From Blepharisma japonicum (taxonomy: Eukaryota > Ciliophora > Heterotrichea > Heterotrichida > Blepharismidae): a stretch of 64,000 nt of DNA. The stretch spans positions 372,001-436,000 of the forward strand of contig CATKHK010000018.1 of NCBI GenBank assembly GCA_949751835.1, written 5' to 3'. A model generated the notes under the pieces. It was given only the letters and a program-made list of their open reading frames with translations. It did not search any database and was not told where the DNA came from. Positions 31,227-64,000 of this stretch are shown here, piece by piece. Position 1 is the first letter of the stretch; every line of letters begins with the position of its first letter. The position numbers and the translations under genes were made by a program.

Positions 31227-32546
31227 ATGGTTCTACGACTTTCCCATATAGGATTGCTCTTTTTGAGCTTATCCCTAGTTACTTCAACTGAAACCCAAGA
31301 ACTCCTAGGCGATACAGATGGCTCATGGAGCTATTTCGGCTACCAAGGCTTCGCAGGTGAAGTTACAATGAACGCACTTACAGGCTCCTCCTATTTCTAT
31401 TGGCTTTTCCAAGCAATTAAAGGTAACATCACAAATCCTGCTGACAAGTTGCCTTTAATAATCTGGATCCAAGGTGGTCCAGGTTGTTCTGGAGAGACTG
31501 GGATGTTTTTTGAAAATATTGCCCCGTTCTATATTGATAACAATACGAATCCTCAGAAAAATCCTTATACATGGACTAACAATTATCATGTTATGACTAT
31601 TGACCATCCTCTAGGGACTGGTTACTCAGTAGCTGGTGCTCCATATGATATGAAAAATACCACAACTGGCTCATCAATCCAACTTTACAACTTTTTGGTC
31701 AAACTGGCAAATAAATACCCAACCTGGTTTTCAAGAGACCTTTATTTCTTTGGAGAAAGTTTTGGAGGACATTGGATTCCTGGCATCGCATATCAGATTG
31801 TGTCTAACAATAGAAGCCCTAACCCTCCTTTTAAGTTTAACCTGAAAGGTGTCGGCATTGGAGACCCATGGACTGATCCTCCAAACCAAAGCCAAACTTA
31901 TGGAAGTTATGCTTATGCGACTGGGATTATTGACCAAGAAGAGCTTGGAATTGTTCAGACTTACGAAGACCAAGTAACAAGCGATTTAAATGTTGGAAAC
32001 TGGAATTCAGCATTAAATGACTGGGAAATGTCTTATTCTCTTATTGTTGACTATGCTGGCGGCATCAATGTATACAACAGCAGAGACTATAACCCTAATT
32101 ACAATATGGGCCAAATGCCAACTTGGCTTAATTTAGCCTCAACTAAGCAGATGATCCATGTCCCTTCAAGTGTAATATGGACTGAGTGCAATAACAATAT
32201 TTATAACGCCATGACCCAAGATATTATGACCTCAGCTGCACCATTAATTCCATATCTCCTTGATACCATAAGAGTCCTTATATATAATGGCCAAGACGAT
32301 TTAATTGTGAACACCCCATCCACTGAACAAATGCTTGCGAACTTAAACTGGCCTTATATCAGCAACTTTATAAACTCAAATAAAATTATTTGGAATGTCA
32401 ATGGAAATGTAGCAGGATATGCCCAGACATATAATAACTTGAGCTTCGTGGTAGTTTTGAAATCTGGCCATATGGTTCCTCATGATCAGCCTGTAAATGC
32501 ATTGAATTTGGTAAATAGATTTATCAACAACCAAGGGTGGCAATAA
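31227..32546 (+). CDS. Serine carboxypeptidase (S10)
   Basis: A 439-residue secreted or lysosomal-type exopeptidase that removes C-terminal residues. The start at 31227 (MVLRLSHIGLLFLSLSLVTS) gives a good signal peptide; the frame is open further upstream, but that extension would bury it. S10 landmarks: 'IIWIQGGPGCSGETG' (oxyanion region), 'LYFFGESFGGHWIP' with the nucleophile Ser, 'VLIYNGQDDLIVNT' with the Asp, and 'SGHMVPHDQP' with the His. Length fits the CPVL-like branch. Several N-glycosylation sequons are visible. No TGA codons or introns. Catalytic set complete, so active by sequence. Confidence 0.92.
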   Translation: MVLRLSHIGLLFLSLSLVTSTETQELLGDTDGSWSYFGYQGFAGEVTMNALTGSSYFYWLFQAIKGNITNPADKLPLIIWIQGGPGCSGETGMFFENIAPFYIDNNTNPQKNPYTWTNNYHVMTIDHPLGTGYSVAGAPYDMKNTTTGSSIQLYNFLVKLANKYPTWFSRDLYFFGESFGGHWIPGIAYQIVSNNRSPNPPFKFNLKGVGIGDPWTDPPNQSQTYGSYAYATGIIDQEELGIVQTYEDQVTSDLNVGNWNSALNDWEMSYSLIVDYAGGINVYNSRDYNPNYNMGQMPTWLNLASTKQMIHVPSSVIWTECNNNIYNAMTQDIMTSAAPLIPYLLDTIRVLIYNGQDDLIVNTPSTEQMLANLNWPYISNFINSNKIIWNVNGNVAGYAQTYNNLSFVVVLKSGHMVPHDQPVNALNLVNRFINNQGWQ

Positions 32547-48593: not shown

Positions 48594-49661
48594 TTAAGCA
48601 ATAGGATATGATGGAGTCATATTAATGCCACAAACTCCTTTCCCGTTAGATATAGCGATAAAGATGTAGCCTTGGTCTCCCCAGCTTGTTCCCCAAGAGT
48701 TTTTCACAATCCAATATGCTGGATGGCTAGTAGTGTCAAAGCCTACAATAAGCACAGCATGGTCAAGGTTAGTCCCGCAGTCACTTGTTACGATTCCTCC
48801 AGTGTAATGTTGTCATAAGGCTTGGCTTGCTTGGACAGCTACTGAGACAGGCTTGGTAAGAACTGCCTGCATAAGAGCATTTGGTGAGTTAGCAGCGACA
48901 ATTGCATAGCTTGAAATTGTGGCAGTTGCTTGAGATTCAAGAGAATTTTGGCATTGCCCATTTGCTGCAGCGTAAGGATAGTTGGTCTCAGTGGTAAGTC
49001 CGTATTTCGTAACGAATTTGAATGCATTAGTAGCTAGACCACCATTGCATCCATTGTTGCCATAAGAGGCTGAGCAGTCAACTAATTCTTGTTCAGAGAG
49101 GGATACAAGAGTGTGCCCGGCTAAAAACCAAGTTCCTTCAACTGCACCTGTGGTAGAGAAAGCCCAGAATGAGCCACATTGTCCTTGATTTTTGACTGGG
49201 GTTACTGCACCTTTAGTTCTCCAATCAAATATTTGAGATATAGCTTCAACTGGGGTATCTTCTTGGGCTAATTCATCGCTGCTTAGGTCGTATTGATATT
49301 GATTAGAAGTGTAAAGGGTTTTAAATTCATTATGAGTGAGATCAGCGAACTGGGTGATACCAAGTATGTAGGTTTTTTCAAGAGTATTGTGGACTCTGGT
49401 ATAGGCGACGTTGTCTCTGAAAATTTTGAAACGAGCATTAAATTCATCAATGTTTTTGTATAGCTTATTGTATTTAGCAATGAATCCTAAGAACTCTTGC
49501 TCGTCGATCTCATATTGATTAAGGGCAAATTTATTTGAGTCTTTTGTGTAAAGAGCTATTTCAGCAACAACCCCTACGATAATAACAAGTATTAAAACCC
49601 CAGGAATAACCTTATTTCTGTTACTAGTTTTTGGTTTATAACTGAAGTAATGCTCTTCCAT
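48594..49661 (-). CDS. Cathepsin-L-like, array copy 1 (Cys to Phe)
   Basis: 355 residues. Head of ~15 residues, membrane segment at about 19-36 ('[20 protein letters not shown]'), I29 propeptide ('[20 protein letters not shown]'), papain domain from '[19 protein letters not shown]'. The active-site block is '[12 protein letters not shown]': Cys25 has become Phe while Gln19, Trp26, His159 ('[11 protein letters not shown]') and Asn175 ('VKNSWG') remain. One TGA (48811-48813) is Trp at the position that is Trp in the other copies, and the frame then runs intact to TAA. The protease should be dead, yet nothing else has decayed, so a single-residue loss under continued constraint or very recent. 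Confidence 0.9.
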
Positions 49662-50804
49662 TTTATTATTTGTCCAATAACTTGTGAGCAGCTTTTATTC
49701 TTGATAAGAAATGGTAGACAAATCTTTAGCATGTTTCAGCAATTTAATAAATAATAAATCTTAGATACTGAGTTTAACTTTATTCTTAGGCAACTAATTT
49801 AATTTAATTTTGTGGATTTATAAATGCTAAAGGGCTTCAAAATCTTGAAGTCATTGTGGCTTGTATTGTCAAAAAACTGAAGCTGACTTAAATTGCACAT
49901 ATTTTAAGTGACAATAGCTAGCGAATCATGCTATTTTGCAAATAAATTGAATCTTATTATCTAAGAGTCTCATTATTTTACGAGTTTTTAAGACTAAAAA
50001 TATATTCTTGATGAATAGTATTTTAAGTGTTTAATCTGCAAGGTCTTATAATGCTATTTGAAAAATAAATTAGAGATGAAGTTTTAGTTAGTTTTACAAC
50101 GTGAGCAATACTACTAAGAATCCTCAAAAGCCTTTTTGCTTCTAGATAACTTCTTAAACGTGATTAATGATAAGGAGTTAAATTTTATGGATTTTATTCT
50201 ATGTTTGTATATCACATTTTATCTCTTTGTTATCTATTCATTACAAGGTAGCTATATTCAGATATCAGACATGAGCCAGAAATCAGATACCCAAAACTCA
50301 GATACCTGACACTAAGAAATCCAAATGCTAGGCATTTATATATCATATCTTGCTATAATATATATAATATTACTCTAACATTTTATGCTGAAATTGCAAC
50401 TTAGCTCTTGAACTTCATAAAACTGATAAACACTTTTTCATAGTCATTAATACTTTTTGGAATGAAACTAACACAAAATAGGGGTTTACCAATTTCCACA
50501 ATTTTATAGGATTTTTAAGATTATTGATTTTTAGGATCAATGTCTCTGTCTTTTGTTTGATAAAATAGCTGACAAATAGAATGATATTTCTATGTCATCG
50601 CTACTCTTGCAGTTCATAAATAAATTAGATCAATTATTATACTATTCCTAATAATTTTAAAGAAGCTAAGAAAAATCTTTAATTTTTCAATTTTCAAGAG
50701 TATAAATTTTTATTTTCTAAATATTAAATGACTTTCAGATTTGAATGAGAAACTAAATGAAGTAAAAATGCAAGTATTAATATCTTAAATAAATAAATGC
50801 TAAA
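49662..50804. other. Array spacer 1
   Basis: About 1.1 kb of AT-rich DNA between copies 1 and 2. A small cluster of short degenerate repeats built on CAGATACC-like units lies near 50255-50320. I do not find a gene, an RNA, or the palindromic upstream element seen before copies 2-6. Confidence 0.5.
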
Positions 50805-51873
50805 TTATAAAGCATTAGTCATTACTGGCTCCATATTGATACCACATACTCCATTTCCGTAGCCAGAAATAGCGATTCTGATGTATCCTTGTTCTCCCCA
50901 GTCTGCTCCCCAAGAATTCTTCACAATCCAATATGGTGGTGAATTAGTCGTATTATAGCCAACAATGAGCACAGCATGATTAATGGCCGTTCCGCAATCG
51001 CTTGATACGATTCCTGATACATAGTTTTGCCATGCTGGCTGATCAGCTTCTACAACTACTGAAATTGGGCTATATAGAACATTTAACTCAAGGGAAAATG
51101 ATGAAAGAGCATGAACATATATAATGCCTGAAATTTTAGCTGCATATATAAGCTTCGAGGGAAGTTTGGCATTTCCGTACTGATCCCTTATAAGGATAGT
51201 TTTCCTCTGTGGCAAGTCCATTATAATAAACGAATTCTAAAGCTGCATTTACAGAGCCGTTGTCACATCCTTGATTCCCATATGTAGATGAACAGTCAAT
51301 TAACTCTTGTTCAGAAAGGGATACAAGAGGATGGCCAGCTATAAACCAAGCTCCTTCAACAGCTCCAGTGGTTGAAAAAGCCCAGCCTGCGTGGCAATCT
51401 TTTCCTTGATTTTTAACTGCAGTGACTGAACCTTTCACTCGCCAATCTACTTGTGAAGAGATTCCTACTAGTGGAGAATTATCAGTAGTTGGAGTTTGCT
51501 CTCTAGGAGTGTATTTAGTAGTATAAAGAGCTTTGAATTCTTCGTGAGTGAGGTCAGAGAATTTGGTTTGGCCAAGTATATAGCTTTTTCCAAGGGTATT
51601 GTGGACTCTAGAATAGACAATATTATCTCTGAAAATTTTGAAGCGAGCGTTGTACTCTTCTACACTTTCGTATTTCTTGTTATATTTAGCAATGAACCCC
51701 TGAAACTCCTGCTCATCAAGGTCATACTGTTGTAGAAAAATATTTTTTGAGCTACTTGAATTAATAGACAACGTTACAACAATTCCTAAAATAGCTATTA
51801 GGGCTAAAGCTCCAAGAATAACATGCTTTTTGCTGATGGTTTCTGGTGTATGACTGAAGTACAGGTTCTTCAT
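50805..51873 (-). pseudogene. Cathepsin-L-like, array copy 2, frameshifted
   Basis: The N-terminal part (51136-51873) has the anchor, I29 propeptide and first papain half. The C-terminal part (50805 to about 51150) continues in another frame, with the break in a TA-rich tract near 51145-51150. No 15- or 16-nt GT-AG intron fits there, so a real frameshift or an assembly error is likelier than splicing. The active-site block reads 'NQGKDCHAGWAFSTTG', so Cys25 is Gly and one residue is inserted before Cys22. His159 ('[11 protein letters not shown]') and Asn175 remain. Just after the break the sequence is unlike its paralogs ('[19 protein letters not shown]'), and the C-terminus ends '[10 protein letters not shown]' instead of PSYPIA. 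Read as a decaying copy. Confidence 0.8.
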
Positions 51874-52256
51874 ATTATTATAGCCATAAGCTTATTAATA
51901 GCTCTTATGCATATAAAAATGCTTTAAGATTTTAGCAAGCACGAGCAAAAAGAAAACCAAAAGCAATTATTTCAATAAATAATTTAACGGAGTCATTATT
52001 AAATATAATTTATGATGAAATCAAAGTTTTCTTATAAACTTTTATTTTAAATGTAATAGTGATTTGCGCTTTCTGATACTTCCTAACTTTAAATTCCATT
52101 TCTAATGGATTACTTGAAAAATAATTTGCACCTGCATATTAAATAATAAAATTATTTAAATAGTGAATAAATTTTAAGTTAGCTTTATTTTTTGTAATTT
52201 TAGAAGGGAATCTCAAAAGAAAGTGAATTAAAAGCAATAAGTTTAAATATATATTA
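51874..52256. other. Array spacer 2, upstream part
   Basis: The first ~50 bp are homologous to the 5' flanks of copies 3 and 4. The rest is AT-rich spacer without a gene. Confidence 0.5.
51901..51920 (-). promoter_or_regulatory. Shared upstream element, copy 2
   Basis: Contains TTATGCATA centred about 36 nt before the ATG of copy 2, in a block of sequence conserved with the same position of copies 3-6. Confidence 0.5.
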
Positions 52257-52290
52257 TTAAGCAATGGGATATAATGAATCTATATTAAGC
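52257..52290 (-). pseudogene. Relic of a cathepsin 3' end (R1)
   Basis: 'TTAAGCAATGGGATATAATG' on the plus strand matches the stop and last codons (PSYPIA) of the array genes, and the flanking 'AAGTTTAAAT' just before it matches their 3' flank. Beyond about 52290 the similarity to coding sequence is lost. The following ~100 bp resemble the DNA after relics R2 and R3. Confidence 0.55.
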
Positions 52291-52630
52291 TACAATGTCA
52301 AAAATTATTCAAAAGAAAAGCCAAAAATATTTCACTTGCTAGATAAATTAAATTGTGACGAGTTAAGATTTCATAACTCAAGCTCTTAAAGAGAGAGATT
52401 ACAGTTAAGGGTAAAGTTTTTCTTTTTAGCACCCTGATAAAAAATTTTATCTTTGGTATACAATCAGTGATTGAAATATTTTTATATAAATTATAAAGCT
52501 GTCTACTTCGATAAAGAGAGATAACACTTTTATTAACCCAAATATGAAACAGAAATATCAAGTAAAGATATTTTCAAGAATAATATCCTGAAGGCATTTT
52601 TAACTTAAGTGATTGGTTAAGAGATTAAGC
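52291..52630. other. Array spacer 2, between relic R1 and copy 3
   Basis: About 340 bp of AT-rich DNA whose beginning resembles the DNA after relics R2 and R3, which points to duplication of the spacer with the gene. No gene seen. Confidence 0.5.
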
Positions 52631-53692
52631 TTAAGCAATAGGATATGATGCACACATATTGATGCCACATACCCCATCTCCATTAGAAATAGCGATTCTA
52701 ATATACCCTTTCTCTCCCCAGCTTGCCCCCCAAGAGTTCTTCACAATCCAGTATGGTGGCTTGTTATTACTATCATACCCAACAATAAGTACACCATGGT
52801 CAAGGCTTGTCCCACAATCGCTTGCTACGATCCCTCCAATATAAAACTGCCAAGCAAGCTGATCAGCTTCTACAGCTACTGATACTGGCTTAGTAGCAAC
52901 TGCAGCCATAAGAGCACTAGACGATTTAGGAGTAACAATAGTATAATTTGAAATTTTAGCCTCAGGTTTATCTTTACGTAAAGTGTCACACTTATCAGTA
53001 TTTCCTGTATAAGGATAGAGGAGATCAGTGGCAAGTCCATATTTTATGATGAATTTGAATGCTTTATCCATTGTGCCACCATTGCACCCGTGATTCCCAT
53101 AATCGGATGAACAGTCAACTAGCTCTTGTTCTGAGAGAGATACAAGAGTGTGATTAGCCAATGCCCAAGTCCCTTCTACAGCACCAGTGGCTGAGAAAGC
53201 CCAGCATGAGCCACAGCTTCCTTGATTTTTGACTGAGGTGACTGCGCCTTTATCTCTCCAATCAACTACTGAAGGAAGAGCTTTAACTGGAGTATCAATA
53301 GTACCTGATTTATCATCATTAGGGACATATGAATTAGAAGTGTAAAGAGCTTTGAATTCTGCGTGGGTGAGATCAGAGAACTGGGTTATGCCGAGTAAAT
53401 AGCTCTTTCCAAGGGTGTTGTGAACTCTTGTATAGGCAGCATTTTCTCTGAAAATCTTGAAGCGGGCATTGAATTCATCAATACTGTCATAGATCTTGCT
53501 GTATTTAGCAATGAATACTTGAAACTCTTGCTCCTCAATTTCATACTGTTGGAGAGCAAATTTTTTTAAGTCACTTGAGGTAGAAGATAATGCTGCTACA
53601 ACTCCTACAACAGCTATAAGGACTATAACTCCAAAAACAACTTTATTCCTGTTGCTAGTTTTTGATTTATGATTGAAGTACAGGCTATCCAT
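52631..53692 (-). CDS. Cathepsin-L-like protease, array copy 3 (intact)
   Basis: 353 residues: head MDSLYFNHKSKTSNRNK, membrane segment at about 18-37, I29 propeptide ('[20 protein letters not shown]', 'FSDLTHAEFKALY'), mature domain from 'VVDWRDKGAVTSVKNQGSC'. Active-site set complete: Gln19 and Cys25 in 'NQGSCGSCWAFSATG', His159 in 'SLDHGVLIVGY', Asn175 in 'VKNSWGASWG'. Predicted to be an active papain-family endopeptidase, made as a membrane-anchored zymogen and released by propeptide cleavage in an acidic compartment. No internal TGA, no introns. Confidence 0.93.
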   Translation of the reverse strand: MDSLYFNHKSKTSNRNKVVFGVIVLIAVVGVVAALSSTSSDLKKFALQQYEIEEQEFQVFIAKYSKIYDSIDEFNARFKIFRENAAYTRVHNTLGKSYLLGITQFSDLTHAEFKALYTSNSYVPNDDKSGTIDTPVKALPSVVDWRDKGAVTSVKNQGSCGSCWAFSATGAVEGTWALANHTLVSLSEQELVDCSSDYGNHGCNGGTMDKAFKFIIKYGLATDLLYPYTGNTDKCDTLRKDKPEAKISNYTIVTPKSSSALMAAVATKPVSVAVEADQLAWQFYIGGIVASDCGTSLDHGVLIVGYDSNNKPPYWIVKNSWGASWGEKGYIRIAISNGDGVCGINMCASYPIA

Positions 53693-54486
53693 ATTATTAT
53701 AGCTATAAGCTTGTCAATGGTTCTTATGCATACAAAAATGCTTAAAAAACTGTGGCGAACAAATTTAAAACAAGTATCGTAATAGATAGTTAATCAAAAT
53801 TTGACTAACAATAAGGTTAAAAAAAGAATTAAAATACTTTTATTTATATATATATTTATTTAAAAGGGAAAAAGTTTGCAACAGTTACAGTTTGCATTGT
53901 TAAGGATTCAAACATAGCTGAGTACATATAGAAAGTCTTTTTAGCTCTGAAAGACATTTCTATTATTTATTCATCATCAGAGCTATTTTGCTGCTTTATT
54001 TCAAGAATAAAAATAATCTTAAACTATGCTCATTTTATCATCTTTTTATATTGATATAATTTTTATGAAAAGGATTTAAGAATCATCCTTTAAAGCTATC
54101 AACTTCAAAATAAAACCAAAATTAATTTTTTGATGCAAGTAGTCTAATGAGATAGTAATTTAACCCTTTTAAAATTAAATTGATGGCGAAGGTAAAAATA
54201 TGCTAATAAGCTTTTATTTCTTAATTCAATCGTGACTTACGCTATCTAATTCTATCAATTTTTCTATTAGATTTCTTTAATTAGCTTACTGAAATGATTA
54301 TTTGCATTAGCATATCCAAAAATAAGAGTAGACTAATTAAAATATTTTAATTACTAGTGCTATGATCTTTTATTAGCTGGAGAAACCAATATAATTATCT
54401 TTTTAAGCTAGTTTTATTTTTCAGAAACTTAGAATTTATCAAGAAGGGAAGCTTAAAACAGAGTAACAAGTTTTAATAAATTATGA
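53693..54486. other. Array spacer 3, upstream part
   Basis: About 790 bp. Its first ~250 bp align by eye with 55839-56060 (5' flank of copy 4), including a TTTATATATATAT tract and 'GCAACAGTTACAGTTTG'. No gene seen. Confidence 0.55.
53721..53740 (-). promoter_or_regulatory. Shared upstream element, copy 3
   Basis: TTATGCATAC core about 36 nt upstream of the ATG, with the context conserved in copies 2 and 4. Confidence 0.5.
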
Positions 54487-54520
54487 CTGAGCAATAGGAT
54501 TTGATGAATTTATATTAATG
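54487..54520 (-). pseudogene. Relic of a cathepsin 3' end (R2)
   Basis: 'TGAGCAATAGGATTTGATGA' and the following 'ATTTATATTAATG' match the last codons of the array genes. The similarity stops at about 54520, and the next ~100 bp match the DNA after R3. Confidence 0.6.
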
Positions 54521-54773
54521 ATAAAAACTATAAAAGTATTCAAATAAAACCAAAAACATTTAATTAAATATTTTCTAGGCTGATAATAAATTGCACACAA
54601 GTTTAGCATTTATTTATTTCTGAAAAGAGATAGAAAAAACATTTTAATATCTCAAACTTGAAAAGGATTAAAATTTTTATTTTATAAATAATAAAATGCT
54701 TGCCAAGTGTAGATATTATCAATAATGTCAATTTAAATGCATTTAAATAAAAGTATAGACTAAGAGATTAAGC
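54521..54773. other. Array spacer 3, between relic R2 and copy 4
   Basis: About 250 bp of AT-rich DNA; the first part is homologous to the DNA following R3 (shared AAACATTTAATTAAA and GATAATAAATTG blocks). No gene seen. Confidence 0.5.
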
Positions 54774-55838
54774 TTAAACGTTAGGGTATGATGGATACAG
54801 ATTAATACCGCATAATCCATCACCAACAACAGCAGCGATTCTGATATATCCTTGCTCTCCCCAGCTTGTTCCCCAAGAGTTCTTCACAATCCAATATGGT
54901 GGTGTGTTATTCATGTTATAGCCAACAATAAGCACGCCATGGTTAACGGCAGTTCCGCAATTGCTTGATACAATTCCTGACACATATAATTGAAATGCTG
55001 GCTCATCGGCTTGCACAGCAATGGAAACTGGCTTAGCTGCAACTGCTATCTGAAGAGCAGTTAAATTTTTAGGAGTAACATCTGTAAAACTCGTAATTTT
55101 GGCTGCGTATTGAGATTGAAGGGAAGTTTGGCAAGTCCCTTGTGATGCTGTATAAGGGTATTTGGCCTCAGTGTTAAGTCCATATTTCATTACGAATTGG
55201 AAAGCGTAATCCATCCAGCCGCCATTGCATCCTTGGTTGCCATAGGAGGATGCACAGTCGACTAACTCTTGTTCTGAGAGGGATACAAGAGTTTTTTTAG
55301 CTATGGCCCAAGCTCCTTCAACAGCACCTGTGGTGGAGAAAGACCAACATGAACCGCATTGTAGTTGATCTTTAACTACAGTGACTGCACCTTTGGTTCT
55401 CCAATCAATTGATGATGGCGGGGCAGCTTTGACTGAAGAATCATCAGTAGATAATTTTTGCTCTCTAGGGATATATGTGCTAAGAGTGTTAAGAGCTTTG
55501 AATTCTTCGTGGGTGAGGTCAGAGAATTTGGTTATACCAAGTATGTAGCTTTTTCCAAGAGTATTGTGGACTCTTGCATAGGCGAAATTATCTCTGAAAA
55601 TCTTCAAACGAATATTGAATTCTTCCAAATTTTCGTAGTTCTTATTATATTTAGCCATAAATACTTGAAACTCTTGTTCCTCGATTTCATACTGTTGGAG
55701 AACAAATTTTTTTAAGTCGCTTGAATTAGCAGAAAATGCTGCTATTACTCCTACAATAGCTATAAGGGCTAAAACTCCAAAAATAGCTTTCTTCCTATTA
55801 CTAGTTTCTGACTTATGACTGAAGTATAGGCTATCCAT
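54774..55838 (-). CDS. Cathepsin-L-like protease, array copy 4 (intact)
   Basis: 354 residues from MDSLYFSHKSETSNRKK. A Met 13 codons upstream is in frame, but the internal one matches its paralogs and lies after the shared ATAATAAT leader. Membrane segment at about 18-37, I29 propeptide, mature domain from '[19 protein letters not shown]'. Cys25 ('CGSCWSFSTTG'), His159 ('AVNHGVLIVGY') and Asn175 ('[10 protein letters not shown]') are all present. Instead of NQG it has 'DQLQ', a feature shared with copies 7 and 8, but Gln19 is kept. Predicted active. Confidence 0.92.
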   Translation of the reverse strand: MDSLYFSHKSETSNRKKAIFGVLALIAIVGVIAAFSANSSDLKKFVLQQYEIEEQEFQVFMAKYNKNYENLEEFNIRLKIFRDNFAYARVHNTLGKSYILGITKFSDLTHEEFKALNTLSTYIPREQKLSTDDSSVKAAPPSSIDWRTKGAVTVVKDQLQCGSCWSFSTTGAVEGAWAIAKKTLVSLSEQELVDCASSYGNQGCNGGWMDYAFQFVMKYGLNTEAKYPYTASQGTCQTSLQSQYAAKITSFTDVTPKNLTALQIAVAAKPVSIAVQADEPAFQLYVSGIVSSNCGTAVNHGVLIVGYNMNNTPPYWIVKNSWGTSWGEQGYIRIAAVVGDGLCGINLYPSYPNV

Positions 55839-56569
55839 ATTATTATATCCATAAACTTGCCAATGGCTCTTATGCATAAAAAAATGTTAAAAAACTTTGG
55901 TTAGCAAATACAAAATTAGCACCACAAGGGACAATTAATCACTGTTTAACTAATAAGGTTAAATAGAGAACTAAAAATATTTTATTTTTATATATATTTA
56001 TCTAAAAAAGGGAAAAATTTGCAGCAGTTACAGTTTGGATTGTTAAGACTTCAAGCTTAGCTGAGCACTTATAGAAATACATTTTAACCTGATAAACATA
56101 ATTATTATTTATTCATGAATCAAGGCTATTTTACTTCTTTATTTCAAGGATAAAAATAATCTTAAGCCATACCCATTTTATCTTTTTTACATCATATAAT
56201 TTTTATGGAAGGAATTTTAAGAATCATTCTTAAAGCGATCAACTTCTAAAAGGAAAATCAAAATTAAGTTTTTTGACATGTAATTTATGGAAGAGCAAAT
56301 TTACCTAAATTAATGACGAACTCTATAGTTTTGTTAATAAGATTTTATTCTTAAGTAATAAGATTTACACTACTATTCCATCAAATTTTCTACCAAAACT
56401 CTTAATGGCTTATTAGGGAGGATTATTTGAATTAGCATGTCAAAAAAAGTGTAGATTGATCTGAAAATATTATACCTTTTAAGCTAGCTTTATTTTGACG
56501 CAATTTTAGAATTAATTTAGAAATCTTAAATAAAATAAATTAAGAGAAACTAAGTTTAAATAATTAAGA
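55839..56569. other. Array spacer 4, upstream part
   Basis: Homologous for the first ~250 bp to the 5' flank of copy 3. The remainder is AT-rich with no gene. Confidence 0.55.
55866..55886 (-). promoter_or_regulatory. Shared upstream element, copy 4
   Basis: A perfect palindrome TTATGCATAA about 36 nt upstream of the ATG. Confidence 0.5.
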
Positions 56570-56610
56570 TTGAGCATTTGGATATGATGAATTTACATTC
56601 CAGCCACAAT
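56570..56610 (-). pseudogene. Relic of a cathepsin 3' end (R3)
   Basis: 'GAGCATTTGGATATGATGAA' followed by 'TTTACATTCCAGCCACAA' matches the last ~13 codons of the array genes ('...atgccacaaac' on the plus strand), with the same 3' flank (AAGTTTAAAT) before it. Confidence 0.6.
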
Positions 56611-57669
56611 AAATCGAAAATTATCCAAAATAGACCCCAAAAAATTTAATTAAACATTTATCTCAGTAGATAATAAATTGTGCACAAATTAAGCTTTTAT
56701 TTGTCAGCTTTGCATTTATTTCTAATAAGAGATAAGAAAAAATTGTTTAATCTATTAAGCTTCAAAAGAGTAAAAAAAGCTTTTTTTATAAATATTAAAA
56801 GGTCGCAGCTGTTAGAGATTTATTTAATCTAAAATTTAACTAATGATTTATATGCAGTTTTTCTTAGTCTTATAGAAGCAAACTTAAATATCTTTATGTT
56901 TGAAGGAAATCTTGCCAGGAATTAAGATAAAATTATTAGAAAAGATTATGCCATTTTCACTAAAATTTGAAAGAAAATTTTAGTATTAAATTATTCTTTC
57001 AGCTGATTTTACAATATCTAGTCCTAAAATTTTGTTACCTATACAAATAATATTAATAACGCAATAATGGGTTGTTTAAAAAATCACATTGAAACATAAT
57101 TTATAATTTTTCAAATAAAAGTACTTTCTATTGCAATCTTCTAAAGTTCACTGTCAATTTATTTATAATTATATTAGAGGATTTATTGATAATAAACTAT
57201 AATAAGCTTATTTCTATAATTCATTCTCATGATCCATTTATAAAAATTCTAAATTCTGCATATCTTTATTTTAGAGTCATCTTACTGGATCGCGGTGAAA
57301 GGGGTGCTACCGAACTAGGCAGCATCACTTAATAGATAATAATCTTATTTGATAATAAATAAATTATAAATCAAACATAAATTATCAACAATATTTTTAT
57401 TTATCCAATAAGCTTTTTCTCATATACTAATTTTCGTCCTTGGCTCTATGATTAGAAAATTATTAGTGCTAGTATACCAAGCTTAAGAGATATCAAATAA
57501 AATTAGTCCTTAAGATAAATAATGCTAAATTGCAGTCTAAGTGTTTCTGAATTAATCTTTTCTAAAGAAATAAAATATATTTAGTCATTTAACATAAAAT
57601 TCACGCTCATAAATATAAAAATAAAATTTAAAGATTCTTAATTAAACATATAAGTTTAAATGATTAAGC
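56611..57669. other. Array spacer 4, between relic R3 and copy 5
   Basis: About 1.05 kb, the longest spacer part. The first ~150 bp are homologous to the DNA after R2. The rest is plain AT-rich DNA apart from a GC-richer patch at 57283-57335, listed separately. Confidence 0.5.
57283..57335 (-). ncRNA. GC-richer tRNA-like hairpin, uncertain
   Basis: In otherwise about 80% AT spacer this ~50-bp patch stands out. On the minus strand it contains 'TGCCTAGTTCGGTAGCA', which resembles a tRNA D-arm, then 'CCCTTTCACCGCG', which resembles an anticodon loop with TTC (Glu). No T-arm or acceptor partner follows, so it is not a functional tRNA as it stands. It can also be read as a simple hairpin (GGTGCTACC/GGCAGCATC). 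It could be a tRNA fragment, a relic, or chance. Confidence 0.25.
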
Positions 57670-58731
57670 TTAAGCAATAGGGTATGATGGATTCATGTTA
57701 ATACCGCAAACTCCTTGCCCACTACCAATAGCGATTCTGATGTATCCTTGCTCTCCCCAGGTTGCACCCCAAGAGTTCTTAACAATCCAGTATGGTGGAG
57801 AGTTGACGTTACTATAGCCAACAATAAGTACACCATGATCGAGCCGTGTTCCACAATTGCTTGACACGATTCCTCCTACATAATGCTGCCATGCAGCTTG
57901 ATTGGCTTGCACAGCTACTGAAACTGGTTTAGTAGCAACTGCTGCCATAAGAGCATTTGGATTGTTAGCAGTAACTACTGCATAGCTTGAAATTTTGGCT
58001 GCAATTTGTGCTTCAAGTGAAGTATTGCATTGCCCATTTTGAGCTTTATAAGGGTAGTTGGCTTCAGTGGTAAGTCCGTTTTTCACTACAAATTTGAAAG
58101 CGTTAGTCATTGAACCGCCACCACATCCATAGTTGCCATAGGAGGATGAACAGTCAATAAGCTCTTGTTCTGAGAGCGAAGTAAGGGTGTGGCCAGCTAA
58201 GAACCAAGTTCCTTCAACAGACCCAGTTGTAGAGAAAGCCCAGCACGATCCACAATCTCCTTGATTTTTAATCGGAGTGACGGCACCTTTGGTTCTCCAA
58301 TCAACTTGTGATGGAACAGCATCAACTGGAATATCGCCTGTAGTCGGTTCTTCATCACTTGGGACATATGCGTTAGGAGCGTAGCGAGCTTGAAATTCAT
58401 CGTGGGTGAGGTCAGAGAACGGGGTTACACCAAGTAAGTAGCTTTCTCCAAGAGTGTTAAAAACTCTGGCATAGGCAATGTTGTCTCTGAAAATCTTGAA
58501 GCGGGCATTGAACTCATCAATGCTATCATAGACCTTGTTGTATTTAGCAACGAAGCCAAAAAATTCTTGCTCATCGATCTCATATTGTTGGAGAACAAAT
58601 TTTTTTGAGTCGCTTGAGCTAGCAGAAAATGTTGCAATAACCCCTACGACAGCTATCAGGGCTAAAGCTCCAAGAATAACCTTTTTCTTGTGGCTGATTT
58701 CTAGCTTATCACTTAAGTACAGCTTATACAT
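57670..58731 (-). CDS. Cathepsin-L-like protease, array copy 5 (intact)
   Basis: 353 residues: head MYKLYLSDKLEISHKKK, membrane segment at about 18-37, I29 propeptide ('[20 protein letters not shown]'), mature domain from '[19 protein letters not shown]'. Cys25 ('CGSCWAFSTTG'), His159 ('RLDHGVLIVGY') and Asn175 ('VKNSWGATWG') are present, so active by sequence. Closest to copy 6 (shared '[14 protein letters not shown]', 'RVFNTLG', 'SYAVVTANN'). No TGA, no introns. Confidence 0.93.
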   Translation of the reverse strand: MYKLYLSDKLEISHKKKVILGALALIAVVGVIATFSASSSDSKKFVLQQYEIDEQEFFGFVAKYNKVYDSIDEFNARFKIFRDNIAYARVFNTLGESYLLGVTPFSDLTHDEFQARYAPNAYVPSDEEPTTGDIPVDAVPSQVDWRTKGAVTPIKNQGDCGSCWAFSTTGSVEGTWFLAGHTLTSLSEQELIDCSSSYGNYGCGGGSMTNAFKFVVKNGLTTEANYPYKAQNGQCNTSLEAQIAAKISSYAVVTANNPNALMAAVATKPVSVAVQANQAAWQHYVGGIVSSNCGTRLDHGVLIVGYSNVNSPPYWIVKNSWGATWGEQGYIRIAIGSGQGVCGINMNPSYPIA

Positions 58732-59403
58732 ATTATTATAGCCAATAGATCACCATTGCTGTTTATGCATGAAAATATTCAACAAACTTTGGCGAATATA
58801 TTTAATTTTAGCAATAGAGAGGATAAGAAATCAAAATATGACTTCTAGTGAGGCTAAACAAAGGCTTAAAATTTTTTTATTTATATATATTCAACAAATA
58901 GGACAGAGTCCATAGCTGTTACATATTTCATATTTAAATTTCAAGAAGTAATATAGAGAGTCTTTCTAGCCTTGATAAGACAAGTATTTATAAATAAGGC
59001 CAACTTCTTTGCTTTAGGAATAAAATTAAGCTTAGATATGCTTTGATTTTTATACATTTTTAATTATATATTTTCGAATAATTTAAAATCATTCTTAAAG
59101 CTATATAATTCAAAACCTAGTGTTTTAGCAGGATAATAATTTTGCATTACTAAATAAATTAAATATTAGAACGAAAGATAAAAATTAATCTCATAAGCTT
59201 CTCCTCTGAAGCTAGTAATAAATTATGCTACTAAAATCAAAATTTACACATATTAATATTAAAGTTTAGTAAGAATAGAGTTATAAAATTATCAAATAAT
59301 CAATGCTAATAATTTCTAATCTAATAAAGTATCTTGAATTTTTCAGGTTTGAAAGGAACTCAAAAAACACTATATTAAATACGACGAGTTTAAATGATAA
59401 TTT
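58732..59403. other. Array spacer 5, upstream part
   Basis: Weakly homologous near its start to the 5' flanks of copies 3 and 4 (TTTATATATAT tract, 'AGCTGTTAC'). The rest is AT-rich, no gene. Confidence 0.5.
58758..58778 (-). promoter_or_regulatory. Shared upstream element, copy 5
   Basis: TTTATGCATGAAA, a variant of the palindrome, about 36 nt upstream of the ATG. Confidence 0.45.
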
Positions 59404-59560
59404 CAAGCAAGGAAATGATGAAATAATATTGATAGCGTGCCATTTAAATGGCTGCTCTAATGCTTCCTTCTTCTCCTAGATGGTTCCCTATAATTCTAAC
59501 AATCAGCATAAGAAGAGTTAGTATAATTACTCTTAACAATTAGTATGCAAGGCAAGATTA
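59404..59560 (-). pseudogene. Relic of a cathepsin C-terminal region (R4)
   Basis: The longest relic. By eye ~155 bp align with the last ~55 codons of copy 6: the end codons, the 'CTTCTTCTCCTAGATGGTTCC' block matching the NSWG coding region, and 'CAATTAGTATGCAAGGCAAG' matching the LDHGVLIVG region. Stops and indels abound. It marks a former gene copy between copies 5 and 6. Confidence 0.7.
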
Positions 59561-59964
59561 CATCATTCATCATATCTTCAATTCCATTGACATATATTTA
59601 TCTTCTTATAAAATCATATAATATTTGAAATAATAATTTAAAGAGGCTACATTATTAAATCCAAAAATTCTAAATAATAATTGTATTTCAGAGTAGGAGC
59701 TTCTTTATTTTCTGATTTTCCAAAATTTGACTTTCAGGTACATTGGTTGAAGATTGTTATCGCTAGTATTCTAAATTAAGAAATAGTAAATAAAAATTAG
59801 TCTTAAAGGTCAATTATGCCTAAAGTGTATTATAAATGCTCTTGAATCGATTTTGTCTAAAGGAAAAAAATTTTTTAGTCATTTTATCATGAAATCCGTG
59901 CTCTTAAATATTAAATATAATTATAAAGATTTTTAATTAAATGGATAAGTTTAAAAGATTAAGC
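59561..59964. other. Array spacer 5, between relic R4 and copy 6
   Basis: About 400 bp of AT-rich DNA, partly alike to the DNA 3' of copy 5 (shared blocks around TCTAAAGGAAAAAAATTTTTTAGTC versus TCTAAAGAAATAAAATATATTTAGTC). No gene seen. Confidence 0.5.
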
Positions 59965-61026
59965 TTAAGCAATAGGGTATGATGGATTCATGTTGATTCC
60001 ACAAATTCCTTTTCCACCTTCAATGGCAATTCTGATGTATCCTTGTTCTCCCCAGCTTGCTCCCCAAGAGTTCTTCACAATCCAATATGGTGGAGAGTTG
60101 GCGTTGTTATAACCAACAATAAGTACACCATGATCAAGGTTAGTTCCGCAACCGCTGGTAACAATTCCTCCTGTATAGCTTTGCCATGCAGCTTGATCAG
60201 CTTCTACAGCTATTGAAACTGGTCTAGAAGCAACTGCTTGCATAAGAGCATTTTGATTGTTAGCAGTGACTACTGCATAGCTTGAAATTTTGGCTGCAAC
60301 TTGTGATTCAAGAGAGGTATTGCATGATCCGGTTTTACCTTTGTATGGGTAGTTGGCTTCAGTGGTAAGTCCGTTTTTCATTACAAATTTGAAAGCGTTA
60401 GTCATTAAACCACCATCGCATCCATTGTTGCCATAAGAGGTTGAGCAATCCATTAATTCTTGTTCAGAGAGGGACACAAGGGTGTGGCCAGCTAAGAACC
60501 AAGTTCCTTCAACGGCGCCAGTGGTTGAGAAAGACCAGCATGATCCACAATCTCCTTGATTTTTGACTCCAGTAACTGCACCTTTGGCTCTCCAATCAAC
60601 TGAGGTTGGAACAGCCAAATCTGGGTTATAGTCAGCAGTTGGTTCTTCTTCGCTAGGAGCATAGGAGTTAGGAGTGTAGCGAGCTTTGAATTCGTCGTGG
60701 GTGAGGTCAGAGAACTGAGTCATGCCAAGTAAGTAACTTTTTCCGAGGGTGTTGAAAACTCTGGCATAGGCAAGGTTGTCTCTGAAAATCTTGAAGCGGG
60801 CGTTGAACTCATCAATGCTGTCATAGACTTTGTTATATTTAGCAATGAATCCGAAAAATTCTTGCTCATCGATTTCGTATTGTCTAAGGGCATATCTTGT
60901 TGAGTCATTTGAGTAAAGAGCTACAGTTGCGACAACTCCTACAATAGCTACAAGAGCTAAAGCTCCAAGAACAATCTTTTTCTTGTTGGAGGATTCTGGT
61001 TTATCACTGAAGTACATCCTTTCCAT
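59965..61026 (-). CDS. Cathepsin-L-like protease, array copy 6 (intact)
   Basis: 353 residues: head MERMYFSDKPESSNKKK, membrane segment at about 19-38 ('VLGALALVAIVGVVATVAL'), I29 propeptide, mature domain from 'SVDWRAKGAVTGVKNQGDC'. Cys25 ('CGSCWSFSTTG'), His159 ('NLDHGVLIVGY') and Asn175 ('VKNSWGASWG') are present. Active by sequence. Codon use is a little richer in GC than its neighbours, as is copy 7, which may mean higher expression. No TGA, no introns. Confidence 0.93.
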   Translation of the reverse strand: MERMYFSDKPESSNKKKIVLGALALVAIVGVVATVALYSNDSTRYALRQYEIDEQEFFGFIAKYNKVYDSIDEFNARFKIFRDNLAYARVFNTLGKSYLLGMTQFSDLTHDEFKARYTPNSYAPSEEEPTADYNPDLAVPTSVDWRAKGAVTGVKNQGDCGSCWSFSTTGAVEGTWFLAGHTLVSLSEQELMDCSTSYGNNGCDGGLMTNAFKFVMKNGLTTEANYPYKGKTGSCNTSLESQVAAKISSYAVVTANNQNALMQAVASRPVSIAVEADQAAWQSYTGGIVTSGCGTNLDHGVLIVGYNNANSPPYWIVKNSWGASWGEQGYIRIAIEGGKGICGINMNPSYPIA

Positions 61027-61511
61027 TTTATTATAACCAATAACTCCTCTATGGCTTTTATGCTTAGCATAAAATGGTCAACAAATATTTGGCGAATTTA
61101 AGCGATTTAAGCAAAAACCCACAAGATGTTTAGTTTTTTATAATTAAAACACTGAAAAATACAGCTGTTCCAGAAATCCCTTGATTTAAAAATTTTGATT
61201 CTTATAAAATGTATTTAATTGTATTTAATGCTTGTAAAAATTCAAGATCGGATAGGCACTTATATGTAGGCTTATTTTGTCTGAATCTAGAATTAAATGC
61301 TAGTATTCTTTTTACTTGAGATGATGATTTATGATTTTGTGACGGAGAGCTTAAGTTTTATAGAGAAAAAGGCTCTTTTCTTTGCTGCTTAGAGCTTGCT
61401 CATTGAGTCTCTTAAGGCTGTTCCCTTACACCAAAATCAATCAGTTCTATCTTTCTTTCACCCCTTCAATTTTCCCTTTATTAACACATAATTAATACCT
61501 ATCTGAATAAA
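61027..61511. other. Array spacer 6
   Basis: About 485 bp with the palindromic element at its copy-6 end. Otherwise no relic, gene or RNA recognised. A slightly less AT-rich patch lies near 61380-61480 (3' flank of copy 7). Confidence 0.5.
61053..61075 (-). promoter_or_regulatory. Shared upstream element, copy 6
   Basis: TTTATGCTTAGCATAAA, a longer palindrome with a 3-nt centre at the same distance (about 35-40 nt) upstream of the ATG as the TTATGCATAA elements of the other copies. Confidence 0.5.
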
Positions 61512-62576
61512 TTAACGAACAGGATAAGCAGGGTACATATTAATCCCGCAAACACCTTCTCCAGTGGTAATAGCAATTCTCAAATATCCTGATTCTCCCC
61601 AGCTTGCTCCATATGAGTTCTTAACAATCCAATAAGGAGGGTTATTAGTATTGTCAAACCCTACAATCAAAACGGAGTGATCAACATCAGTACCGCAATC
61701 TTGGCTAATAATGCCTCCAGTATACATTCTCCAGGCTGCTTGGTTTGATTGGACAACAACAGAAATTGGCTGCTGAACTACAAGTCCCATTAAATTGTTA
61801 GGTGCATTAGCCTCTGCAGTTTGGTAGCTAATAATGTTAGCAACTGGCTGATTTTGAGCAGCAGTGGTGCATTTACCTTTGACTCCTTTATATGGATAGT
61901 TAGTATTGCTGGTAAGTCCATGGGCCATTGCAAACTGGAAAACGTTAGTTGGTAAGCCACCGCCGCACCCTTCATTTCCAAATCTAGTTGAGCAGTCCAC
62001 AACTTCTTGTTCAGAAAGAGCTACAAGGGTGTGGTTTGTGATAAACCAAATTCCTTCTACGGCTCCTACACCTGAAAAGGCATATCCATCTCCACATTGC
62101 AATTGGTTGCCAACTGGAGTCACAGCGCCTTTAGCTCTCCAGTCCCAACTTGTTTGGTTGGTGGCGTTTTTAAGGTTTCCTGACAGGTTTGTCCTTTCAG
62201 GGAGTTGGTATTTAATAGGAGCGTAAATGCTAGAGAATTCCTCTTGAGTCATGTCAATGAATTGAGTGATTCCTAAATGATAGGAACGGCCAAGGGTGTT
62301 GTGGACTCTGGCATAGGCATAATTGTCCCTGAAAATTTTGAGGCGTGCTTGGTATTCTTCTTCATTGGCGTAAACTTTGTTAAATTTGGCCATAAAGCTT
62401 TGGAATTCTTGTTCTTCAATAGCGAATTGCTGAAGAGCGTAATTGGGTGCAGGGGTACTGGAAAGAGTGGCAAAGGCGGCAACGACTCCAACAAGGGCGA
62501 CTACTCCGACAGCACAGAGCACAATCTTCTTTTTGTTGCTGGGTTCTGCTTTATCGCTGAAGTAAAGCTTGTCCAT
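61512..62576 (-). CDS. Cathepsin-L-like pseudoprotease, copy 7 (Cys to Gly)
   Basis: 354 residues: head MDKLYFSDKAEPSNKKK, membrane segment at about 18-40, I29 propeptide ('YQARLKIFRDNYAYARVHNT'), papain domain from 'SWDWRAKGAVTPVGNQLQC'. The active-site block is 'QCGDGYAFSGVG': Cys25 is Gly and Trp26 is Tyr. His159 ('DVDHSVLIVGF') is kept; the 'NSWG' motif is 'NSYG'. Disulfide Cys and length are kept, with no stops. Its good codon bias and intact frame argue for an expressed, non-catalytic role (decoy, ligand-binding or chaperone for an active paralog). Confidence 0.92.
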   Translation of the reverse strand: MDKLYFSDKAEPSNKKKIVLCAVGVVALVGVVAAFATLSSTPAPNYALQQFAIEEQEFQSFMAKFNKVYANEEEYQARLKIFRDNYAYARVHNTLGRSYHLGITQFIDMTQEEFSSIYAPIKYQLPERTNLSGNLKNATNQTSWDWRAKGAVTPVGNQLQCGDGYAFSGVGAVEGIWFITNHTLVALSEQEVVDCSTRFGNEGCGGGLPTNVFQFAMAHGLTSNTNYPYKGVKGKCTTAAQNQPVANIISYQTAEANAPNNLMGLVVQQPISVVVQSNQAAWRMYTGGIISQDCGTDVDHSVLIVGFDNTNNPPYWIVKNSYGASWGESGYLRIAITTGEGVCGINMYPAYPVR

Positions 62577-63104
62577 TTTAAGTTAATTATTTCACCTATG
62601 GATGTGAATATGGGTCAGTTTAGATATAAGAATTCGTAGAGGAAATAATAAAAATAAAGAAGATAGCTGGATTTAATAGAGGAGTAAGGGAAGTTTTTGA
62701 GATGAGAAGGGAGGAAAATAAGGATTTTTTGATTTATTTGAAAAATGAGAAAGAAGAGTAATGGAAAATTATGAGGATTTTTAATTAAGGCGTTTTATAA
62801 TAAATCATAACATCTGCTAAAAAATTTATCAATATTTTTAAGTTTGATATGACAAAATGTATAATATGAATATTTTCTATCACAATTTGATATACTTTTG
62901 ACTTTCGCTCAAAAGGTAAATCAATTGATATATAAAAATTTTAAATTTTGGGAAAATTAATAAAAATTTAAGCACATCAATGCATGGAAAATATATCTGA
63001 AGTTTATAACTGAAAATTTATTTTAAGTTAATTTATATTTTAAATTAAATTTATTTCTTCTACACAATATTTCAACAAATATTAAAAATCAAGGGAATTT
63101 ATAT
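62577..63104. other. Array spacer 7
   Basis: About 530 bp, AT-rich. No palindromic element, relic or gene recognised. Confidence 0.5.
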
Positions 63105-64000
63105 TTAATAAATTGTATAGGTAGGTACCATATTAATGCCACAAATCCCGCTTCCACTTGAAATGGCTATTCTTATATACCCATTTTCTCCCCAGCTTGC
63201 TCCCCATGAATTCTTAACAATCCAATACGGAGGATTATTTGTATTGTCATAGCCCACAATAAGCACACTGTTATCAAGATTTACCCCACAGTTATCAGTA
63301 ATGATCCCAGTCCTATAGAACTGCCAAGCAGCTTGATTTGATTCTACTACAACTGTAACAGGCCACTGAGCGACAATTGCCATAAGAGAATTAGGTGAGT
63401 TTGGAGGGACTGTCTCATAAGAAGTTATTTTGGCAAGACTTTGTGATTGTTTAGATGTATTACATTTTCCTTTAACACCTTTGTAAGGATAGTTAGTTTC
63501 ACTTGTAATGCCATTAGCTATCACAAACTTAAAAGCTTGAGATGCCAAACCGCCACTGCAGCCATTGGTGCCAAAAGAAGTTGAACAGTCTAGTAACTCT
63601 TGTTCTGATAATGAAAGCAGTTTATTATTGTTAATAAACCAAATTCCTTCAATAGCGCCTGTAGCTGCAAAAGCCCACCCACACGCACATTGTAGCTGAT
63701 TTTTAACTGGAGTCACTGCTCCTTTAGTTCTCCAGTCAACTTGTTGAGGAATATCGCCATACGAAGCTTCTTGTTCCTGATTTTCTTCAGTGATTATTTC
63801 ATACTTTATTGGAGTCATAAATCTTTGAAATTCTTCATGGGTGAGATCAGAAAACTGATTTACACCTAAAAGATAAGAGTTTCCAAGAGAGTTGTGAAAT
63901 TTTATATAAGCGAGATTGGTAAGAAATATGCCGAGGCGAGTTTTGTATTCTTCAGGGGTTTTATAATCTTTGTTGTAGTTGGAAATAAAGTTTAGGAATT
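63105..64000 (-). CDS. Cathepsin-L-like pseudoprotease, copy 8, partial
   Basis: The 5' end lies beyond the window. The frame is open to base 64000, and the visible 298 residues start inside the I29 propeptide ('YKTRLGIFLTNLAYIKFHNS', 'NQFSDLTHEEFQ'). The papain domain runs from '[19 protein letters not shown]'. The active-site block is 'QLQCACGWAFAATG', so position 25 is Gly with a Cys shifted to 24, and His159 is Asn ('NLDNSVLIVGY'). Asn175 remains ('VKNSWGASWG'). Both members of the catalytic dyad are gone, so this copy cannot be a cysteine protease, though its frame is clean and it ends at TAA. Confidence 0.9.
   Translation of the reverse strand, partial: FLNFISNYNKDYKTPEEYKTRLGIFLTNLAYIKFHNSLGNSYLLGVNQFSDLTHEEFQRFMTPIKYEIITEENQEQEASYGDIPQQVDWRTKGAVTPVKNQLQCACGWAFAATGAIEGIWFINNNKLLSLSEQELLDCSTSFGTNGCSGGLASQAFKFVIANGITSETNYPYKGVKGKCNTSKQSQSLAKITSYETVPPNSPNSLMAIVAQWPVTVVVESNQAAWQFYRTGIITDNCGVNLDNSVLIVGYDNTNNPPYWIVKNSWGASWGENGYIRIAISSGSGICGINMVPTYTIY

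Follow-up and report, generated by a model that had tools for sequence, protein, structure and literature searches.

The stretch considered here is a window of 64,000 nucleotides from the ciliate Blepharisma japonicum (GenBank assembly GCA_949751835.1, contig CATKHK010000018.1, positions 372,001 to 436,000 of the forward strand; window coordinates are counted from its first letter), and the subject is a tandem array of papain-family, cathepsin-like protease genes that occupies positions 48594-64000. On translation with TGA read as tryptophan (table 4), eight Peptidase_C1 genes are found there, all on the minus strand, running in one direction and head to tail. Ten translated pieces of the window were scanned (seven from array genes that are whole or cut by the edge, two from copy 2 and one from a gene elsewhere in the window); all ten match PF00112, at 100-261 bits against a cut-off of 20.7, and nine also match the I29 propeptide domain, the exception being the C-terminal piece of copy 2. 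In papain numbering, the residues at position 25, that of the catalytic cysteine, are Phe, Gly, Cys, Cys, Cys, Cys, Gly and Gly in copies 1 to 8 respectively. Copies 3 to 6 have the full set expected of an active C1A peptidase (Cys25, His159, Asn175 and Gln19), which copies 1, 2, 7 and 8 and the gene outside the array do not. Seven of the eight array genes are single open frames, and copy 2 is split over two. An earlier note, made from the letters of the window, had described eight head-to-tail papain-family genes with an intact triad in copies 3 to 6, these same four replacements in the other copies, and frame decay in copy 2 only; since the layout, the residues at position 25 and the break in copy 2 have all been borne out by domain scans and alignment, that observation was right in substance.

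The copies, all given here on the minus strand, differ considerably in detail. Copy 1 (48594-49661) encodes a cathepsin L-like protein of 355 residues with an N-terminal hydrophobic anchor, an I29 propeptide and a Peptidase_C1 domain; its Cys25 has become Phe (codon TTC), with His159 and Asn175 kept. Copies 3 (52631-53731), 4 (54774-55877), 5 (57670-58770) and 6 (59965-61026) are intact, each with Cys25, His159 and Asn175, and a duplicated unit of about 2.1 kb, at 74% identity, is common to copies 3 and 4. Copy 7 (61512-62576) is an intact frame of 354 residues in which Gly25 (GGA) is accompanied by Ser24 → Asp, Trp26 → Tyr and Trp177 → Tyr, again with His159 and Asn175 kept. Copy 8 (63105-64000) is cut by the window edge and comes to 356 residues once read past it to coordinate 64175; its anchor and propeptide are present, it carries Cys24-Gly25 (GGG), and His159 has been replaced as well, by Asn (LDNSVLIVGY). 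So far as the search shows the array ends at 64175, all ten PF00112 matches of the contig lying inside the window. The earlier suggestion that just the nucleophile had been lost is therefore wrong for copy 8 (His159 lost) and for copy 7 (Asp24, Tyr26 and Tyr177).

Copy 2 (50805-51873) has Gly25 and a frame break within the mature domain, leaving two open pieces at 51873-51136 and 51221-50805; its GCxGG motif is broken, with one additional residue ahead of Cys22. A tiny intron was considered as the cause of the break (introns in Blepharisma stoltei are mostly 15-16 bp; PMC9942806), but removing the short GT-AG stretch in question reopens the frame only by shifting about 33 codons that are conserved among the paralogues, so that a true frame break is likelier, and copy 2 is likely to be a decaying gene. 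Between the array genes, also on the minus strand, an intergenic remnant of 58 bases at 54472-54529 corresponds to the 3' end of copy 1 (78%), and the intergenic stretches 52172-52332 and 56477-56647 pair with one another at 74% identity; within the first of these, 52226-52288 resembles copy 5 at its 3' end as well (75%), and within the second, 56573-56608 has, once translated, a weak match to the C-terminal end of copies 5 and 6 (E about 3 over 12 residues). Given the break in copy 2 and these 3'-end remnants, ordinary decay is ongoing in the same array.

A ninth papain-family gene, missed in the first reading, stands isolated outside the array at 24908-25972 on the minus strand. It too is dead, having Glu19, Asp25 and Tyr26 with His159 and Asn175 kept, and it belongs to an all-dead clade of three genes, here called the D clade, whose other members lie on other contigs (C148:5184, L029, and C30:51256, L055). 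Glu19, Asp25, Tyr26 and His159 are combined in this clade, and Glu19, Asp25 and His159 may together have turned the former active site into one for a ligand or a metal.

In order to place the array within its family, Peptidase_C1 domains were sought throughout the one assembly searched (45.19 Mb in 224 contigs), from which all of the results given here derive. At least 99 matches to PF00112 were found; all 99 domains were aligned, but ten of them, with fewer than 180 residues, did not enter the tree; the two parts of copy 2 are among these ten. Cys25 and/or His159 is missing from 49 of the 89 domains of at least 180 residues (48 of these 49 lack Cys25), as against 40 long domains that have both. 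Dead domains make up 24 of 50 in the cathepsin L-like group, 9 of 15 in the B-like group, 14 of 21 among two-domain proteins, both members of a separate pair, and none of the single further row; the subfamily names are labels given from sequence, and the groups fall on separate sides of the tree. Each of the genome's 50 I29 matches is followed, within 250 bases downstream, by a C1 match.

Active and dead domains are mixed in three tandem arrays, namely that in the window, one on contig C16 and one on contig C1. The C16 array, at about 340-360 kb (L034-L036), is of cathepsin B-like genes, three active copies being followed by several dead ones that have Gly, Ser or Ala at position 25 and often Thr in place of His159, some of them with stops. 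The C1 array, at about 910-932 kb (L031-L033), consists of proteins with two papain domains in each frame: in about seven of the genes the domains are dead, with Ser or Thr at position 25 and no His159, and one more gene joins a complete domain to one that keeps Cys25 but not His159, so that only one complete domain is left in the array. Two-domain proteins on contigs C61 (L037) and C20 (L038) have Cys25 and His159 in both domains. One L-like protein (C31:120666, L045) has Cys25, His159 and Asn175 together with Trp23 and Phe177, and perhaps represents an early step away from activity. Since dead genes occur genome-wide and two other arrays are mixed, the window array is a local sample of a genome-wide pattern, and the pairing of enzyme and pseudoenzyme to which the earlier note drew attention is not special to this cluster.

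The number of times that catalysis was lost was estimated mainly from a tree of 38 L-like rows, comprising 37 of the 50 L-like domains, chosen by hand to represent clades, and the N-terminal part of copy 2; it was built without the columns around the active-site cysteine, and 20 of its rows are dead and 18 active. A single clade of all 20 dead rows is rejected by the approximately unbiased (AU) test (p 1e-114), as is a single clade of the 16 dead rows outside the array (p 1e-8) or of the dead rows with Tyr26 (p 5e-4). The tree requires at least seven changes of state, six of them forced by well-supported branches, or ten losses if a lost cysteine cannot return; a tree of all 50 L-like rows (quick search) gives eight changes. 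The array together with the C45 row forms a clade (support 99/95). Array copies 1-8 as a clade to the exclusion of C45 are not rejected (p 0.24), and grouping the four dead copies of the array together is borderline (p 0.042). Within the array, the losses are most simply counted as three events, in copy 1, in copy 2 and in copies 7 and 8 together; the repeated independent loss proposed earlier thus comes, on the simplest count, to three events and not four. The pairing of copies 7 and 8 has support of 100/99 with the motif columns and 78/40 without them. Three dead lineages (copy 8, L050 at C15:448832 and L030 at C23:381863) have Cys24 beside the lost Cys25, a residue seen in none of the 18 active rows of the same set.

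Selection on the dead copies was assessed in pairs of dead genes whose common ancestor was already dead, for which reason all of the divergence within a pair postdates the loss, using the ratio of non-synonymous to synonymous change (omega = dN/dS) and a likelihood-ratio test (LRT) against omega = 1. This comparison of dead with active copies, which the earlier note had proposed as its own check, comes out in favour of constraint: omega is 0.10-0.46 in dead-dead pairs, with omega = 1 rejected in every pair tested (least LRT 13.1), and 0.08-0.34 in active pairs (0.08-0.25 outside the array; 0.27 and 0.34 within it). Seven dead L-like sets and the C25/C81 pair give 0.10-0.28 (LRT 53-208), and the dead two-domain domains of the C1 cluster, 11 of which were tested in pairs, give 0.10-0.32 (LRT 31-112); the dead B-like copies of C16 give 0.16-0.18 in one set and 0.37-0.46 in another, a trio, which looks relaxed (LRT 13-85). 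For the least diverged pair of the D clade, which includes the gene at 24908, saturation is no issue because dS is only 0.41, and here omega is 0.17 (LRT 83). The constraint extends beyond the mature domain, omega in seven dead L-like pairs being 0.09-0.25 for the propeptide and 0.01-0.30 for the anchor region. The dead clades are thus under purifying selection, mostly comparable to that on active copies, as is expected of pseudoenzymes retained after catalytic loss; no such claim is made for copy 2.

The estimates for individual array copies are for terminal branches, and it must be remembered that these can include time before the loss, a point that matters most for copy 1. Branch omega is 0.265 for copy 1 (LRT 39.5), 0.186 for copy 7 (30.1) and 0.109 for copy 8 (67.8), and 0.383 for the N-terminal part of copy 2, which also rejects 1. 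As the copy 1 branch includes pre-loss time, constraint after its loss is unproven. The earlier inference of selection for a non-catalytic role is accordingly upheld by the dead-dead pairs and by copies 7 and 8, but not for copy 1 after its loss, nor for the decaying copy 2.

It is against these figures that a simple process of birth and death has to be judged, in which duplicates would lose Cys25 first on their way to becoming pseudogenes, with no function in between. Copy 2, with its broken frame and a branch omega of 0.38, is what such a process would leave, as are the remnants of further lost copies between the array genes and the TAA stops in some dead B-like and two-domain domains; the omega of the B-like trio, the fast evolution of even the active copies 3 and 4 (branch omega 0.39 and 0.53) and the failure of a few stem branches to reject omega = 1 could be read in the same way. 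However, quite apart from the rejection of omega = 1 in every dead-dead pair, 21 of the 24 dead L-like genes have intact full-length frames of at least 340 residues, where neutral frames of such age should hold many stops: out of 60 simulated neutral frames at each setting, none was still without a stop at dS 0.4 and one at dS 0.2. Decay is already refuted for the tested dead clades but may apply to copy 2 and, after its loss, to copy 1; as a general account of the dead copies it is quite improbable.

What the dead L-like proteins keep is, first of all, the plan of the prepro-protein, that is, the anchor, the I29 propeptide, the fold cysteines and usually His159 and Asn175. The six fold cysteines are present in all 24 dead L-like domains at five sites and in 23 at the sixth, so that the earlier statement that propeptide, anchor and disulfides are kept proved sound; Asn175 is found in all 24, His159 in 22, Gly65 in 21 and Gly66 in 23. 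Within single anchored zymogens of about 350 residues, the dead position 25 is occupied by Phe, Gly, Asp, Pro, Ala or Ser. The ERFNIN motif, searched as a strict pattern, is uninformative, since it is missing from many active copies too.

In raw counts, some residues of the old active site have changed mainly in dead domains. Gln19 → Glu is seen in 8 of 24 dead and 0 of 26 active L-like domains, and Trp26 → Tyr in 13 of 24 dead and 1 of 26 active; on the 38-row tree the exchange of Trp and Tyr at position 26 takes seven changes and that of Gln and Glu at position 19 takes three. As convergent marks of death, Tyr26 and Glu19 were put to an independent-pairs test, which with only three supported pairs could not reach significance. 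These changes bear on the most far-reaching interpretation considered, by which the papain family would be a pseudoenzyme system on the scale of the genome: recurrent loss of Cys25 in L-like, B-like and two-domain lineages would be coupled to repeated remodelling of the old active site into a convergent new binding site (the ligand or metal pocket suggested for the D clade being an example), and the dead domains, which outnumber the active ones, would regulate or partner the active digestive cathepsins. As a whole we regard this as unlikely.

Another possibility is altered catalysis, in which some other nucleophile or a new chemistry would be used, by the Ser25 copies, the Cys24 copies or the Glu19-Asp25-His159 group of the D clade. 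Ser25 is indeed common (12 of 14 dead rows in the two-domain group, 7 of 24 dead domains in the L-like one), a Cys at position 24 appeared on three occasions next to a lost Cys25, most dead L-like copies retain His159 and Asn175, and silicateins, which are Ser-type relatives of papain, are named among the solved relatives. Against this, Phe, Gly, Ala or Pro at position 25 offers no nucleophile, His159 has gone from copy 8 and from the dead two-domain rows, and in the malarial protein SERA5, which has Ser, proteolytic activity was undetectable (PMC4671257). Altered catalysis is on balance distinctly improbable, and from the missing nucleophile the dead copies are presumed to be without catalytic activity.

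A more direct indication of where constraint lies comes from the substrate cleft, defined as 20 positions excluding Cys25 and the disulfides and compared with the remaining mature domain. The cleft is more conserved than the rest in six of seven active pairs, but in only two of six independent dead pairs, the mean difference (cleft minus rest) being +0.12 in the former and about 0 in the latter (Mann-Whitney p 0.035); a seventh dead pair, C148/C30, was left out as having a member in common with another pair, and points in the same direction. It is thus shown, if more weakly than the purifying selection itself, that dead pairs no longer show the additional conservation of the cleft seen in active ones, whereas the rest of the fold has suffered no such loss, and because of this the constraint seems to have shifted from the groove to the whole fold. 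Not every cleft site is released: Gly65, Gly66, Asp158, Asn175 and Ser176 are identical in all six dead pairs, whereas at positions 23, 24, 68 and 160 the two sequences agree in 2, 3, 4 and 4 of six dead pairs, as against 7, 5, 7 and 7 of seven active pairs.

The same data bear on two roles in which the dead copies would still use the groove. According to the first, raised as a possibility in the earlier note, they would be decoys that soak up cleft-binding inhibitors, either the cell's own or those of its prey, and so shield the active copies. The genome does contain six chagasin-like (I42) matches and one cystatin match, and dead L-like copies keep the papain fold and usually Gly65, Gly66, His159 and Asn175; nevertheless, since dead-pair clefts are on average no better conserved than the rest and positions 23, 24, 68 and 160 are identical in fewer dead than active pairs, decoys acting through the cleft are disfavoured as the main role, and a bulky Phe25, or Pro25 with Tyr26, would be expected to disturb binding there. 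We consider the decoy role rather unlikely. According to the second, the dead copies would be carriers of peptides bound in the old substrate groove. The five cleft residues identical in all dead pairs would suit such a role, and in SERA5 a Ser → Cys change gave an active recombinant enzyme, from which its authors concluded that peptide binding is possible (PMC4671257); the groove as a whole, however, has lost its extra conservation, and this reading too is quite improbable.

The reading preferred here, which we hold with about even confidence, is that the array is part of a large and repeatedly duplicating papain/cathepsin family in which Cys25 has been lost many times and most of the products have been kept as pseudoenzymes. 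Most dead copies would then probably be retained pseudoenzymes acting through the body of the fold, and since they have mostly been kept by natural selection, they would have some job other than cutting. In outline, duplication of cathepsin genes would have been followed by repeated loss of the catalytic cysteine; given their common plan of anchor, I29 propeptide and papain fold, dead and active copies would both be membrane-anchored proteins of the secretory pathway, delivered by one route to a lysosomal or digestive compartment; and there the dead copies may serve as non-catalytic binders, whether as regulators, chaperones or scaffolds of active cathepsins or as binders of prey proteins, by way of the outer surface of the fold rather than by cutting. 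Copy 2 would be the exception, a copy in decay. The best-supported reading is thus non-catalytic binding by the body of the fold, comparable to the non-enzymatic role of SERA5, its partner, compartment and expression being matters of inference, as are the food-vacuole digestion or defence suggested in the earlier note.

A number of observations weigh against this reading. The loss in copy 1 could be recent. Of the stem branches that carry a loss, three reject omega = 1 (P clade, LRT 40.9; C128/C85 pair, 9.8; S pair, 6.9) and two do not (D clade, 0.39, LRT 2.6; A pair, 0.31, LRT 3.8); that leading to copies 7 and 8 is so short as to give no answer. Several pairs lie at dS 2-3, where omega is no more than approximate even when a value of 1 is rejected. 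The cleft comparison depends on 20 sites and 13 pairs, with identities rounded to two decimals, and the cleft is still the better conserved part in two of the six dead pairs. Finally, some dead genes elsewhere have stops or are truncated, so that decay runs alongside retention.

Papain pseudoenzymes as such are already known. The SERA genes of Plasmodium stand in a tandem cluster, with Cys replaced by Ser only, and encode much larger proteins. Like the Blepharisma genes they are a papain-like multigene family mixing catalytic types, here Cys-type and Ser-type members, in which P. falciparum SERA5 is a non-enzymatic papain-like protein (PMC4671257) that acts in this way beside SERA6 (PMC4671257, PMC8167364); the dead members of the Blepharisma array differ in carrying Phe or Gly rather than Ser, and to that extent the array is not of the SERA type. 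In the scabies mite, the multicopy SMIPP-C family similarly has active and inactive papain-type members, five being active and five predicted inactive, the latter localised to the mite gut and faeces and described as unique to scabies mites (PMC5956821). Blepharisma differs in having at least seven changes of state within one subfamily and three subfamilies affected, and the AU test given above speaks against a single radiation of SMIPP-C type, assuming that SMIPP-C itself forms one clade. Tenebrionid beetles have cathepsin L and B homologues without active-site residues (Gln19 → Glu with Cys25 → Ser; Cys25 → Ala), which cluster between two species and whose transcripts come from the larval gut (PMC4336737); there, three per species are inactive out of about 25 and 29 cathepsins (summed from the same source), as against 49 of 89 domains here. 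A parallel within ciliates, in an unrelated protein family and process, is provided by the PiggyMac-like transposases of Paramecium and Blepharisma, where several catalytically incomplete paralogues beside one complete one are reported to be under purifying selection (PMC9942806).

Copy 7 matches SPE31 (entry 2b1m) at E 5.5e-44. SPE31 and P34 (Gly m Bd 30K) of legumes have a papain fold in which Gly replaces Cys25, as in copy 7; they are soluble plant seed proteins, and we know of no anchored zymogen or mixed array among them. Sponges as well as legumes have papain pseudoenzymes. The plan of an anchor ahead of an I29 propeptide is also that of the falcipains, which have a type II N-terminal anchor and are delivered to the food vacuole; these, however, are active enzymes, and to our knowledge there is no mass of inactive falcipain paralogues. 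Among the matches listed in the literature search there was no report of a dead cathepsin family in Blepharisma or other ciliates, most subscription papers and preprints being outside its scope; the available parts of the Ichthyophthirius genome paper (PMC3341644) contain no report of dead papain copies, nor do those of a survey of papain-family evolution (PMC10380794) report ciliate ones. What seems to be new is the dead share of the family, its repeated origin in three subfamilies and the measured constraint after loss.

Two further features of the sequence may be mentioned. In Blepharisma UGA encodes tryptophan and the telomeres consist of CCCTAACA (PMC9942806); three copies of this octamer in succession occur 168 times in the assembly, as against none for the reversed pattern, and several of the places, among the matches listed, fall within the first hundred bases of a contig; with TGA standing as a sense codon in conserved genes, the assembly agrees with that description. 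In the same window as the array, 31227-32546 on the plus strand contains a gene with a GESFGG motif, which we take to be serine carboxypeptidase-like.

Papain-type pseudoenzymes are usually encountered singly or in small numbers within a family, or else make up a family specific to a parasite. Here, a single genome has 49 disabled and 40 active long domains, several losses and dead clades that remain under constraint, so that the role a protease fold takes on after cutting ends, and the reason why it is so often retained, become testable in this organism.

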